This document shows, in pieces, positions 31,868-42,707 of a stretch of 54,499 nt of DNA. Source of the stretch: Gammaproteobacteria bacterium (GTDB lineage: Bacteria > Pseudomonadota > Gammaproteobacteria > SZUA-152). Under the pieces are notes generated by a model, which saw nothing but the letters and a program-made list of their open reading frames with translations, had not been told where the DNA came from and made no database searches. The DNA lies in the NCBI GenBank assembly GCA_011321815.1, contig DROS01000012.1:1-54499 (forward strand), read 5' to 3'. Every line of letters begins with the position of its first letter. Position 1 is the first letter of the stretch. A program made the translations under genes and the position numbers.

Positions 31868-31928
31868 TGCCAATACCGTAAAATCACTCCTGTCCATCAT
31901 TTTGTGCCGTTCTGCACGGGCCGCTTCA

Positions 31929-32001
31929 ACGAAAAGGATCGAGAAAATGGGCCGAAATGGTTTTTTCGCAGTAGATTCACCCTAAGTCCGGCAGACTCCT
32001 A
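31929..32001. mobile_element. Half copy of the 160-bp MITE-like element
   Basis: This matches the right half of the element at 41680-41842: CGAAAA.GATCG..AAAATGG, then GTAGATTCA.CCTAAGTCCG.CAG.CTCCTA. The left half is absent. Its end (CTCCTAG) supplies the TAG stop of rep at 31999-32001. Confidence 0.75.
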
Positions 32002-34005
32002 GCCCAGCATATCACGCAAATTAGCCAGATGAGCGCGGCCACGTTCCTGGCGCTCTTCGGGATCAACCTGCTCGCCCCGGCCTTCCCACAGCAGATCGTC
32101 CTCGGGCAGTTCACTCAAAAACCGGCTGGGCTCACAGTCCACGATTTCGCCGTGCTTGCGACGGCGGGCGGACATGGTGAACGTCAGCGTTTTTTGCGCC
32201 CGGGTAATGCCAACATACGCCAAACGCCGCTCTTCTTCTATATCGTCGGCCTCCAGGCTGGCGTGATGGGGCAACAGGTTTTCTTCCATACCCACCACAA
32301 ATACGTGGGGGAATTCCAGACCTTTGGCGGCGTGCAGAGTCATCAATGAAATACAGTCATCACGCTTTTCGTCTTCATTCCGTTCGAGGATGTCCATTAA
32401 TGTCATTTGCGCCACCAATTCACCAAGCCCGGCATCACCCTCACCTTTCTCCGCCATGCGCGTCAGCCAGTCCACCAGCTCGTGCACATTGGCCATGCGG
32501 CGTTCGGCGCTTTTGGGATCGCTACAGGTATCGAGCAACCAGTCTTCGTAGCGAATATCGCTGATGACTTCTTTGACTGCGGCCACCGGGTCACCACGCT
32601 CGGCCAGTTCTGCTTTCGCTGCCAGCCAGCGGACAAATTCCCGCACCCGGGTCAGGGCGCGTTCACTCAGTTGCATTTCCAACCCCAGCTCATCGCAGGC
32701 AGCATACAGGCTGATACCCCGCTCACCTGCATAGGTGGCGATTTTCTCCAGTGTGGCCGGGCCGATTTCACGCCGTGGTGTGTTAACCACGCGCACGAAG
32801 GCGTTGTCGTCTTCCGGGTTCACCAGCAGACGCAGGTAGGCCATGATGTCTTTCACTTCCTGATAGGCAAAAAATGAGGTGCCGCCGGAAATCTGGTACG
32901 GCAGCTGGTTTTCGCGCAACCCCTTTTCAAACAACCGTGACTGGTGATTGCCGCGATACAAAATGGCGTAATCGCTAAAACGGCCACCGTTCTGGAATTT
33001 GTGCGCTAGCAGTCGTGACACCACCTGTTCCGCCTCGTGATCTTCGTTACGCGCCTGCACGACTTTTATGGGGTCACCATAGCCCAGCTCACTCCACAGG
33101 CGTTTTTCAAATACGTGCGGGTTATTGTCGATAAGCTGGTTGGCAGCTTTCAGAATACGGCCAGTGGAGCGATAATTTTGTTCCAGCTTGATGACCTTGA
33201 GCGTGGGAAAATCCTGCGATAGCAGGGCCAGATTTTCCGGCTGCGCACCACGCCAGGCATAAATAGACTGGTCGTCATCGCCCACCACGGTCAATGCGCC
33301 GCGCACACCCACCAGACTTTGCACCAGCCGGTACTGGGCACTGTTGGTGTCCTGGTATTCGTCCACCAGCAGGTAGCGAATACGATTCTGCCAGCGCTCC
33401 AGCACCTCGGGAAATTCGCTGAACAGTTGTGCGGGCAGGCCGATGAGGTCATCAAAATCCACAGCGTTGTAAGCCCGCAGGTGATGATTGTATTGCTCAT
33501 ACAACATTGAAGCGGCCACCAGCCTGGGGTCGCCATTGGCCGAAGCCTGCGCTTGTGCAGGACTGGTCATGTCATTTTTCCAGTGGGATATCTGCCACTG
33601 CATTGCCTGCGCCTCGTCATCGGCATCAAAGGCCCGGCGCATCAATTCCTTGATCAGCGCCTGCGAATCCTGTGAATCGTAGATGGAAAAACCTTTGCGC
33701 AACCCCAGCGCCTTGCCGTCACGCTTGAGAATATTCAGGCCCAGGTTGTGAAAGGTGGAAACACGCATACCACGACGCTCGGCAGCCTTCAGCTCACCTT
33801 TAAGGCGAGCCTGCATTTCACGGGAGGCCTTATTGGTAAAGGTCACCGCAGTGATATGGTGGCCTTTGATGTCGCAATTTTGTACCAGATGCACGATTTT
33901 TTGCGTGATTACGCGGGTCTTGCCGGACCCGGCACCAGCCAGCACCAGTAACGGGCCATCAATGTAACGCACCGCCTCTTTCTGACGGGGATTGAGTTGG
34001 GACAT
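31999..34005 (-). CDS. rep: ATP-dependent DNA helicase Rep
   Basis: A 668-residue SF1A 3'-5' helicase that helps forks move through protein blocks. Walker A is AGAGSGKT (23-30), motif II is LLVDEYQDTN, and QSIYAWRGA, LEQNYRSTGRI and LMTLHAAKGLEF match motifs III-V of Rep/UvrD. Overall it fits Rep better than UvrD or PcrA in length and ending. The protein stops in HLANLRDMLG; E. coli Rep goes on with a few more basic residues after the same segment. The stop codon lies in the end of a MITE-like element, so the last few residues have probably been lost. Confidence 0.94.
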   Translation of the reverse strand: MSQLNPRQKEAVRYIDGPLLVLAGAGSGKTRVITQKIVHLVQNCDIKGHHITAVTFTNKASREMQARLKGELKAAERRGMRVSTFHNLGLNILKRDGKALGLRKGFSIYDSQDSQALIKELMRRAFDADDEAQAMQWQISHWKNDMTSPAQAQASANGDPRLVAASMLYEQYNHHLRAYNAVDFDDLIGLPAQLFSEFPEVLERWQNRIRYLLVDEYQDTNSAQYRLVQSLVGVRGALTVVGDDDQSIYAWRGAQPENLALLSQDFPTLKVIKLEQNYRSTGRILKAANQLIDNNPHVFEKRLWSELGYGDPIKVVQARNEDHEAEQVVSRLLAHKFQNGGRFSDYAILYRGNHQSRLFEKGLRENQLPYQISGGTSFFAYQEVKDIMAYLRLLVNPEDDNAFVRVVNTPRREIGPATLEKIATYAGERGISLYAACDELGLEMQLSERALTRVREFVRWLAAKAELAERGDPVAAVKEVISDIRYEDWLLDTCSDPKSAERRMANVHELVDWLTRMAEKGEGDAGLGELVAQMTLMDILERNEDEKRDDCISLMTLHAAKGLEFPHVFVVGMEENLLPHHASLEADDIEEERRLAYVGITRAQKTLTFTMSARRRKHGEIVDCEPSRFLSELPEDDLLWEGRGEQVDPEERQERGRAHLANLRDMLG

Positions 34006-39993: not shown

Positions 39994-41682
39994 ATGTTAT
40001 CTGCACTAAAAAAATCATTAAAAAGCAACCCCTCATACCATGATATTCAAACGAATATTCTGGCAGGTTTAACTGTCGGAGTAATTGCATTACCACTTTC
40101 TATGGCGCTGGCAATTGCCAGTGGAACCCCACCACAACATGGCCTATACACAGCAATAATCGCTGGCATTGTTATCGCTTTAACTGGTGGCTCAAAAGTA
40201 AATATATCAGGCCCTACAGCTGCGTTTGTTGTCGTATTACTGCCAATTGTTCAGGAATTTGGCATAGGCGGACTGCTCCTTAGTGGATTCATGGCCGGCT
40301 TAATTCTCATTATTATGGGTATCAGCAAGCTGGGAAAATTTATTGAAATCGTGCCATACCCTGTCATCATCGGCTTTACCGCAGGCATTGGTGTAGTTAT
40401 CGCCACTTTTCAAATAAAAGATTTTCTCGGGCTTGATATAGCGTCAATGGATGGCCACTACCTTGACAAACTTGCATTTATTTTCCATGCAATACCAACG
40501 ATTAACTGGCAAGAGACCCTGATTGGCGGGCTGACACTTGTGATATTGTTAGCTTGGCCACGAGTACGGTCTAAAATTCCCGGCCATCTCGTTGCTCTGT
40601 TTTTCGGCTCCATAATCGCCTTACTGTTAAGTTATTTCATTCAGGACTTCTCTGTTGCCACTATCGGCAGCCGATTTCACTATGAGATTAACGGTATCTC
40701 AGGCAATGGGATTCCTGCAATTCTGCCAACATTTGAATGGCCTTGGAATCTACCCGGTGGCGATGGCAAGCCCATCGGACTTAGCTTCGAGCTTGTCCGG
40801 TTACTTCTGCCCTCAGCCATTACAATTGCGATACTGGGTTCACTGGAATCATTGTTGTGCGCAACGGTTGCCGATGGCATGTCTGGAAAAAAACATAACC
40901 CAAACGATGAACTTATCGGCCAGGGGATCGGTAATATGATTACACCGCTATTCGGTGGCCTTCCGGCAACTGCGGCTATTGCCCGTACAACAGCAAACAT
41001 CAAGGCGGGAGGCAGCTTACCATTGGCCTCAGTCGTTCACAGCCTATTCATACTCATCGCCATACTGGCACTGTCACCATTGCTATTCTACCTGCCCATG
41101 GCCTCAATGGCGGCATTATTATTAGTGGTTGCATGGAACATGAGCGAAGTCAGGCATTTTGTTCGTACTGTCAAAATTGCCCCCAAAGATGACGTTTTGG
41201 TTTTAATCTTATGCTTTCTACTCACCATTTTCTTTGATATGACGATTGCTGTCGCTGTCGGCATGGGGCTTGCCGCAATGTTATTCATTCGCAGAAGCGT
41301 CAGTCTGGCGGAAACCACAGAAATAGAGAGCAATCATGATGCCTATAACCTGCCTGATAAAATTGCGGTATACGACATCAACGGACCATTGTTTTTTGGT
41401 TCCGCGCAAAAAGCATTAAAAACAATTTCAACAGTAACGCCTGATATACAAGTCGTCATTCTTGACATGTCAAAAGTTACTATGCTTGATATGAGCGCCA
41501 TTATTGCAATGGAATCAATGGCAGAAACCCTTTCCAACAAAAACATGGGGTTGATCATCAATAACTTGCAACCCAGAATGATATTAAAACTGCGCCGTGC
41601 CAACATCAGAAAAAAATCTGGCAAAATAGCGTTTTCCAGATCTCTTGCAGACGGTTTCGTGCTGGCAAATAAAATGCTCTAG
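39994..41682 (+). CDS. SulP-family anion transporter with STAS domain (DauA-like)
   Basis: A 562-residue membrane transporter. Residues 20-430 hold about 12-14 helices with the SulP signatures NILAGLTVGVIALPLSMALA, SGPTAAFVVVLLPI, GSLESLLCATVADGM and GGLPATAAIARTTANI. The last 120 residues are a STAS domain (AVYDINGPLFFGSAQKA...VVILDMSKVTMLDMSA). Length and sequence type resemble DauA, a dicarboxylate carrier, and also the BicA-type bicarbonate carriers; in an autotroph bicarbonate, sulfate or dicarboxylate are all possible. Its TAG stop lies in the end of the MITE-like element. Confidence 0.9.
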   Translation: MLSALKKSLKSNPSYHDIQTNILAGLTVGVIALPLSMALAIASGTPPQHGLYTAIIAGIVIALTGGSKVNISGPTAAFVVVLLPIVQEFGIGGLLLSGFMAGLILIIMGISKLGKFIEIVPYPVIIGFTAGIGVVIATFQIKDFLGLDIASMDGHYLDKLAFIFHAIPTINWQETLIGGLTLVILLAWPRVRSKIPGHLVALFFGSIIALLLSYFIQDFSVATIGSRFHYEINGISGNGIPAILPTFEWPWNLPGGDGKPIGLSFELVRLLLPSAITIAILGSLESLLCATVADGMSGKKHNPNDELIGQGIGNMITPLFGGLPATAAIARTTANIKAGGSLPLASVVHSLFILIAILALSPLLFYLPMASMAALLLVVAWNMSEVRHFVRTVKIAPKDDVLVLILCFLLTIFFDMTIAVAVGMGLAAMLFIRRSVSLAETTEIESNHDAYNLPDKIAVYDINGPLFFGSAQKALKTISTVTPDIQVVILDMSKVTMLDMSAIIAMESMAETLSNKNMGLIINNLQPRMILKLRRANIRKKSGKIAFSRSLADGFVLANKML

Positions 41683-41842
41683 AAGCCTGTCGGATTTAGG
41701 TGATCGTCGTGAGGCGAGTGGGAAATGGCGGACCGTTTTTCGATCATTTGAGGCGAATAGTGGTGACTATTTAACGAAAATGATCGGAAAAATGGACCCA
41801 TTTCCCACCGCCGTAGATTCATCCTAAGTCCGACAGGCTCCT
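41680..41842. mobile_element. About 160-bp palindromic MITE-like element with TA-flanked ends
   Basis: The ends are inverted: AGCCTGTCGGATTTAGG (41684-41700) and CCTAAGTCCGACAGGCT (41823-41839) differ at one position. The next layer also pairs imperfectly (GTGGGAAATGG with CCATTTCCCAC; CGATCATTT with AAAATGATCG). The centre is AATAGT-GGTG-ACTATT. The whole element could fold as one long hairpin. It is bounded by TA on both sides, as for IS630/Tc1-type insertions. It has no ORF. A half copy is at 31929-32001. Confidence 0.8.
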
Positions 41843-41936
41843 ACATATACCCGTAGCGTTTGGGTGTTGGAGCGCTAAGCACCATTACGACACATTGTAT
41901 TGTGATTTTTTCCCAAGAGTCGCCACTTAAACCAAA

Positions 41937-42707
41937 TCACCTTCCCCCCGCCACATCAATAAGCGCACCAGTTACATACGACGCTTCATCTGACATCAAC
42001 CATACTATGGCATTGGCAACGTCTGAGGCACTACCTACCTTCTTCATGGGAATGAATTTTTTCAGCTTTTGCGGCCGGTTAATATCCCCTGCATCGAGGT
42101 GCATTTCTGTTTCAATCAACCCTGGTCTTACTGCATTGACTCTGATACCTTCCTCGGCAACTTCTTTCGAGAGCCCAATTGTCATCGTGTCTATTGCGCC
42201 TTTTGAGGCTGCATAGTCGATAAATTCATGCGGCGATCCAAGCCGTGCGGCAGCAGATGATACATTTATGATAGAGCCACCATGCCCATCCCGGCCTGTT
42301 GACATTCGTTTGACGGCTTCACGAGCACATAAAAAACTTCCCACAATATTCGTGTTAAATATTTTATGCAGCCGGTCCGCACTGACATCAACCAACGGGG
42401 ATTGGGGAGCGATAACACCCGCGTTGTTTATTAATGCCTGAATTTTTCCGAATTTATCCACCGTATTGAATAAAGAAATGACATCCGCTTCCTTGCTTAT
42501 ATCTGCTTTTACAGATATCGCTGAACCACCAGATTCATTTATTTCATCCACCAGCTTTTCGGCGGAATCATTCCTGCTTTGATAGTTTATACAGATTGAC
42601 CACCCTTTTTTATTTGCCAGCCTTGCTGTGGCAGCCCCGATACCCCGACCGCCACCGGTAATAAGCGCCACTCTTTTTTTCAGGGCCACAGAACTATCAG
42701 GTTTCAT
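41937..42707 (-). CDS. Short-chain dehydrogenase/reductase
   Basis: A 256-residue NAD(P)-dependent oxidoreductase of the classical SDR family (FabG/glucose dehydrogenase-like). The cofactor loop GGGRGIG (18-24), NNAGVI, the catalytic Ser in INVSSAAA and YAASK with the Tyr and Lys are all present, and it ends VTGALIDVAGGR. I choose ATG 42707, which overlaps the GNAT gene by 11 bases; an ATG at 42746 would overlap by 50. Substrate unknown. Confidence 0.87.
   Translation of the reverse strand: MKPDSSVALKKRVALITGGGRGIGAATARLANKKGWSICINYQSRNDSAEKLVDEINESGGSAISVKADISKEADVISLFNTVDKFGKIQALINNAGVIAPQSPLVDVSADRLHKIFNTNIVGSFLCAREAVKRMSTGRDGHGGSIINVSSAAARLGSPHEFIDYAASKGAIDTMTIGLSKEVAEEGIRVNAVRPGLIETEMHLDAGDINRPQKLKKFIPMKKVGSASDVANAIVWLMSDEASYVTGALIDVAGGR

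Follow-up and report, generated by a model that had tools for sequence, protein, structure and literature searches.

The end of the SulP-type sulfate/anion transporter gene at positions 39994–41682 (+) raises the questions of what kind of sequence directly follows its stop codon, whether that sequence created the stop, by what machinery it could have arrived, and why it is folded as it is. The window analysed here is a stretch of 54,499 nucleotides from contig DROS01000012.1 of a gammaproteobacterial genome assembly. The palindrome that the original prediction had placed at the end of this gene was confirmed; it is near-perfect and lies between the 4-mers CTAG at 41679–41682 and CTAC at 41841–41844.

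Read from the sequence, the region 41679–41844 is composed of CTAG, an 18-base end, a long stem, the inverted end, and CTAC, with 158 bp between the boundary 4-mers. The left boundary 4-mer, defined by the sequence and by boundary statistics over the copies, holds the stop codon of the transporter gene, with TAG at 41680–41682 forming its second to fourth bases. The left terminal inverted repeat (41683–41700, +) reads AAGCCTGTCGGATTTAGG, with the family consensus GAGYCTGTCGGAYTTAGG, and is common to IS1182-family insertion sequences (see below); the right terminal inverted repeat (41823–41840, –) reads CCTAAGTCCGACAGGCTC, and both were delimited by arm complementarity and an end-motif scan. 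The right boundary 4-mer (41841–41844) is CTAG with one change, and the pair CTAG/CTAC is found in 3 of 128 copies. This change, together with AAG instead of GAG at the left, accounts for the imperfections of the window copy. Between the two ends lies the inner structured module (41701–41822, +), a long stem recognised by folding and alignment, whose pairs covary across 75 copies. The alignment also delimits four conserved strands of internal loops, all given on the forward strand: the 5' side of the lower loop, CGTCGTGAG (41705–41713; CGTAGCGAG in the family); the 5' side of the upper loop, TTTGAGGCGAATA (41747–41759), which defines the orientation of the element; the 3' side of the upper loop, TTTAACGAAAA (41770–41780); and the 3' side of the lower loop, CGCCGTAGATT (41809–41819; CGCAGTAGATT in the family).

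The outer arms (41680–41700 and 41823–41843, 21 nt each) are 90% complementary, and an inner arm pair (41736–41761 and 41766–41791) is 77% complementary. The 164 nt from 41680 to 41843 fold with an energy of –94.3 kcal/mol, compared with a mean of –44.0 kcal/mol for shuffled sequences (z –13; none of 200 shuffles equalled it), and the same strand folded as DNA gives a z of –10.6. With regard to coding potential, a single 60-amino acid frame with a TTG start crosses 41683–41840, and no other ORF of at least 60 amino acids overlaps it. Searches against Rfam yielded a best match with an E of 0.45, far under its gathering score, for window positions 41500–42000; for 12 element loci, the sole match was a tRNA located away from the element. 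The element is thus short, non-coding and devoid of a transposase, as is typical of MITEs, and it likewise has the terminal inverted repeats and dispersed copies of such elements.

In its own genome (3.58 Mb, 109 contigs), a blastn search with a 181-base query returned 50 match rows, some of which represent both strands of a single copy, and 40 of 52 candidates were scored. The search for end pairs that had been suggested along with the prediction found many bounded copies; at no more than 3 mismatches, the end motif occurs 42 times in forward and 51 times in reverse orientation, compared with 4 and 6 times for the reversed control. The scanned loci of this genome contain 26 distinct end-bounded copies, two of them short (41 and 119 bases), which bears out the idea of a MITE-like, multi-copy mobile palindrome whose boundary forms a stop. 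One further copy lies within the window itself, truncated to its right half (31925–32002, +, found by the end-motif scan); its boundary CTAG at 31999–32002 holds the TAG stop of the ORF 31999–34005 (–), presumably a helicase gene. Among 40 genomes, the own genome included, matches were found in 21, all of the same bacterial family and belonging to 5 genera; three genomes of that family gave no element match. The exact 22-base end is present in 27 of 369 sampled genomes of the class, compared with none for the control. Loci from other families mostly carry the same palindrome of approx. 162 bases with the same internal loops, and a few have short forms (68–91 bases) or one end only.

Several variants were observed among these copies. 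A 230-base subfamily in one genome (G010; L220 471–700, L240 517–746, L241 498–727) carries extra hairpins near the tip of the stem, and the remaining fold is kept. Two 68-base forms (L270 1504–1571 and L284 1452–1519) are almost identical despite coming from two different bacterial families, and they retain both ends and part of one arm. At one insertion site, two subfamilies occupy orthologous positions (L016 1500–1667 in the own genome and L137 1495–1665 in G006), with flanks that are 96–98% identical. Apparently, either one element took the place of another or a tandem pair lost one member in each line; judged by the sequences, this site supports element turnover.

The transporter gene encodes 562 amino acids and was identified as an ORF with the Pfam domains Sulfate_transp and STAS. 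It had been proposed that insertion created a new stop codon in this gene, and that the C-terminus should be aligned with those of its relatives. The closest element-free SulP protein (L061, 82% identical) ends in ...KML and stops at the same residue, 562, with TTTAG in place of the CTCTAG found here; by this comparison, the stop was not made by the insertion. Other SulP relatives stop between residues 562 and 588, several of them at 562–563, and a few distant or cut ones stop earlier; the relative from the same genus (G004) stops at residue 568. None of the 76 named-record SulP loci contains a believable end-bounded copy of the element.

The same was observed at other filled sites. At L293, the neighbouring gene ends in ...DIDNPA, followed by TAG, in the filled genome; a relative that lacks the element at this site has the same ending, followed by TGA. 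At L276, both convergent genes end within approx. 3 residues of relatives without the element at that position; of the three gene ends compared at these two sites, one is thus at the same residue and two are within approx. 3 residues. Moreover, 8 of 10 scanned proteins that end at an element boundary, including that of L293, reach within approx. 12 positions of the end of their family model (e.g., AhcY 416/416, LeuC 465/466, HscA 600/600), some models scoring below cut-off; of the other two, one has no family match and one is ambiguous. As their ends match those of relatives and family models, the boundary-ending genes compared or scanned were not cut by the element. At SulP, the element would have landed on a CTAG that already formed the end of the gene, as a C followed by the stop TAG, and SulP would thereby have kept its stop and its length.

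How often the element lies at gene ends was determined for 122 copies from many genomes, each with at least 320 bases of flank. In 49 of them, an ORF of at least 100 codons ends in the boundary TAG, and in 8, convergent ORFs do so on both sides; this is the count of stop-codon copies that had been called for. CTAG is rare in the own genome: in a sample of 374,499 bases (16 stretches of 20 kb and the window), 70 sites were observed and 1,462 were expected from base composition, an approx. 20-fold deficit. GATC, CATG and others, unlike CTAG, are common in the same sample. Among 60 scored own-genome CTAGs not located at an element, 37 are intragenic and 23 are not; 12 of the 60 coincide with the end of an ORF of at least 100 codons, and 7 with that of a selected gene. 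The 49 of 122 copies from many genomes exceed the 12 of 60 background sites from the own genome (P 0.0075); however, 7 of 21 own copies compare with 7 of 23 background CTAGs outside genes (P 1.0), provided that gene-end CTAGs are counted among those not inside genes. Because the own copies match the background outside genes, CTAG targeting combined with the loss of harmful insertions suffices; the background reaches the same share of stop codons as the copies when sites within genes are disregarded, so that no active preference for stops is evident, and CTAG targeting together with the rarity of the site can explain the count. Gene ends would be common sites owing to the rarity of CTAG in this genome and to the presumed loss of insertions within genes. 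With respect to the gene, the element is oriented in the same direction in 26 cases, in the opposite direction in 30, and ambiguously in 1.

The boundaries were characterised in two sets of copies. In the first, comprising 74 end-bounded intervals of 41–334 bases, a few of which are probably spurious, the commonest flanking pair is CTAG/CTAG (36 intervals). In the second, comprising 128 copies of 140–240 bases and thus 256 ends, conservation read inward is 0.82 for C, 0.77 for T, 0.91 for A, 0.98 for G, and 0.95 for the following G. Deviating pairs mostly concern the outer half of the 4-mer (CCAG/CTAG 10, CTAG/CTGG 6, TTAG/CTAG 5, CTAG/CTAA 5), and the only identical non-CTAG pair among the 128 copies is TTAG/TTAG. 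The outer C deviates at 45 and the inner G at 5 of 256 ends (P 8e-10). The flanking TA originally described is indeed present at the boundary of most copies, but the boundary is better described as CTAG. Variation of the outer bases is predicted by duplication of TA inside a preferred CTAG, or by entry without a 4-base duplication, and not by strict 4-base duplication; the boundary sequences would therefore favour one of the former. Very-short-patch repair acts on CTAGG, and the excess of T to C among deviations at the second base (37 of 59) resembles its effect. At the best empty site (L229 compared with contig 69 of the own genome, L374; flanks 87–88% identical), a single 4-mer, CTGG, replaces CTAG-element-CTAG; because CTAG is its own complement, this site fits 2- and 4-base duplication alike. 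Comparison of L010 with two own-genome repeats agrees weakly with a 4-base site, and two other candidate empty sites (L143 with L163/L145 and L276 with L416/L417) are too diverged for the 4-mer to be read.

The element had been assigned to the IS630/Tc1 type, and an IS630-like transposase with the same ends was to be sought. A PF13358 profile search identified 28 loci in 10 of 24 genomes of the bacterial family; none has an end pair within approx. 1.5 kb, and four have a single match at 3–4 mismatches. For the loci searched in this bacterial family, the IS630 partner was therefore rejected, the same ends being found instead around IS1182-family transposases. Two other candidates were discarded: PF01609 has one match in the own genome, at a contig start and lacking the ends, and the six PF05598 loci of the bacterial family have only chance-like end matches with 6 mismatches. 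The own genome, a draft of 109 contigs, contains no match to NF033551 (the IS1182 model) and none to PF05598; its partner must either have disappeared, have escaped the draft assembly, or have belonged to past hosts.

The search with NF033551 was extended to 35 chosen genomes, in which 30 loci and 14 further stretches were inspected for ends, yielding a single relic, adjacent to an identical end (L306), and a single fragment, whose end is related (L299). In the relic, which lies in a MITE-rich genome (G373), a PF13751 match is located just inside the identical end. A protein search with this relic gave matches, some of them intact, in 24 of 369 genomes. In particular, six insertion sequences in five genomes (L340, L342, L343, L345, L347 and L364, the same genome holding both L343 and L364) are bounded on either side by CTAG and a matching end; their ends are of the type CTAG[GC]AGYCTGTCGGACT and are spaced approx. 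1.57–1.65 kb apart. The four transposases tested score 334–375 bits against the IS1182 model, for which the cut-off is 270. The ends that the element has in common with an autonomous element thus occur in other genomes of the class and belong to the IS1182 family, and homology between the element and these insertion sequences covers approx. 20–25 bases at the ends, in addition to one weak match of approx. 40 bases. Two viral contigs also carry this end; a similar protein starts 54 bases after it in one and 61 bases after it in the other, and both contigs break off after 13–14 residues, too few to assign the protein. A plasmid collection searched with the viral end region gave no match, and two further viral-contig patterns retrieved no additional contigs. 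From these ends, we infer that transposases of the IS1182 family may move the element: such a transposase would recognise the ends GAGYCTGTCGGAYTT, move the element in trans, and insert it at CTAG.

The inner fold was analysed in an alignment of 75 distinct near-full-length copies oriented by the loop motif TTGAGG, from which two copies of ambiguous orientation and copies containing N or cut at an edge were left out. The consensus fold comprises 56 pairs, 41 of which show at least one double compensatory change. Paired cells amount to 96.4%, compared with 81.2% after shuffling, and covariation scores 0.425, compared with 0.171 (0 of 500 shuffles as high); when the partner is shifted by 1 to 3 columns, paired cells fall to 37–55%. 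The stems vary freely, and the two asymmetric internal loops, CGTAGCGAG/CGCAGTAG and TTTGAGGCGAATA/AACGAAAA, show little change. The chosen strand gives the more stable fold of the two in 71 of 75 copies, with a mean difference of approx. –15 kcal/mol. The asymmetry persists in 30 of 32 copies after thinning at 90% identity, in 10 of 12 at 80%, and in 4 of 6 at 75%, the heavy thinning at which significance is lost. The four exceptions include L162, probably mis-oriented by the motif rule, and L041 (1495–1664), a mosaic in which the outer stem is inverted relative to the tip, as if the arms had recombined. In the same direction, G-U cells outnumber A-C cells (327 and 34; 71 and 29 inferred events), an excess partly inflated by the choice of consensus structure; a control restricted to inner pairs common to the folds of both strands gave 32 G-U and 21 A-C. 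Sets of pairs with a Watson-Crick majority, in which G-U and A-C are about equal, reuse columns and are not proper structures, and were set aside. Because the G-U excess is inflated in this way, the claim of strand specificity rests on the fold energies of both strands.

Other explanations of how the element inserts have to be weighed against movement by an IS1182-family transposase into CTAG. Insertion of an IS630/Tc1-type MITE at TA, with duplication of TA, would agree with the TA at most boundaries, with the variable outer C, and with pairs of the TTAG/CTAG and CTAG/CTAA types, which outnumber identical non-CTAG pairs and fit TA duplication better than duplication of 4 bases; nevertheless, the PF13358 loci of the bacterial family without end pairs, and the ends in common with IS1182-family insertion sequences, render this origin highly improbable. 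IS1272 is placed in the IS1182 family, and its replacement of inverted repeats has been described (PMC5678879). Insertion of this kind could be reconciled with the orthologous site that carries different subfamilies (L016/L137), and yet it appears quite unlikely here, as the one clear empty site (L229/L374) has only a 4-mer at its junction and no inverted repeat, so that no target palindrome of the IS1272 type was lost there.

The fold, too, admits other readings than selection on the element. Arm-to-arm correction in quasi-palindromes is known in principle, and a neutral correction of this kind during replication would keep the arms alike and yield double changes without any selection on the fold. 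However, the two asymmetric internal loops are conserved and uncorrected across the family, and a strand-blind process should not favour the same strand in nearly all copies, an argument that thins out with the copies (4 of 6 at 75% identity); a purely neutral origin is accordingly unlikely. It has also been proposed that the element acts as a terminator or mRNA end, and a host-beneficial 3' mRNA element, terminating or stabilising transcripts and selected at gene ends, would be in keeping with a very stable hairpin directly after stop codons, in 8 of 122 copies between convergent ORFs. Such a role is nonetheless very unlikely: orientation to the gene is random though one strand folds much better, the frequency at gene ends is that predicted from CTAG targeting, and no terminator-like site was found at the element, with one located 120 bases away on the other strand.

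The element at the end of the SulP gene is therefore, with high likelihood, a non-autonomous palindromic MITE of approx. 160 bp that is moved by IS1182-family transposases and was inserted at a pre-existing CTAG gene end, and its inner module of approx. 120 nt would, as part of the same well-favoured explanation, be under selection to fold on one strand. At the level of sequence, this reading is supported by the copies and their ends, the partner insertion sequences found elsewhere, the pre-existing stop, the covariation, and the strand asymmetry. Since orientation to the gene is random, selection would act on the element itself; the fold is probably selected at the element level and not for the host, and we infer that its function is the mobility or survival of the element. 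A bolder, tentative proposal is that the fold, as a strand-specific RNA or a single-stranded DNA hairpin, takes part in movement in a class-wide family, with the transposase reading the duplex ends and the loops recruiting a protein or guiding a step into CTAG. If this possible but doubtful reading were true, selection on the structure would operate on the element instead of the host. With this family, one could ask in a natural setting why selfish palindromes retain their fold; the family also illustrates that a position at gene ends need not imply a regulatory role.

Among the matches listed in the open-licence literature on palindromic MITEs and on IS1182 and IS630 targets, no title or abstract describes this element family, nor do the available passages of PMC5896051, PMC4853749, PMC3189936, and PMC10969869. 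Known systems nevertheless offer instructive comparisons. Small non-coding CTAG or YTAA insertions are described in passages on MITEPsy1 of Pseudomonas syringae, an IS5-type element that was shown to move with a 4-nt duplication; unlike the present element, it has the terminal repeats GGAAGGTCTGAAAAAGCC as printed and a length of 100 nt, and those passages contain no long covarying hairpin (PMC3189936). QMITE1 and QMITE2 of Coxiella are likewise palindromic MITEs with stable predicted RNA folds, but the available text gives QMITE2 direct repeats of 7–11 nt of variable sequence and contains no CTAG string (PMC5896051). In enterobacteria, RU-1 (127 bp) and RU-2 (168 bp) are similar in size and are described as intergenic repeats with MITE-like features (PMC2759123).

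Bacterial MITEs are commonly regarded as passive remnants of insertion sequences. RU-1 is identical to ERIC, and YPAL is similar; RU, ERIC, and YPAL elements form hairpins and occupy gene-end positions, and to our knowledge, RU/ERIC have either no known partner or an IS630-like one. A further likeness is to the IS1182-family insertion sequences (NF033551), in which CTAG and the terminal sequence GAGYCTGTCGGACTT mark both ends and the transposase scores above cut-off; in contrast to them, the element is devoid of a transposase, and those compared did not contain its structured inside. The present family combines a conserved, covarying, strand-specific fold with ends known from an insertion-sequence family and with a rare target site, which accounts for its location at stop codons.
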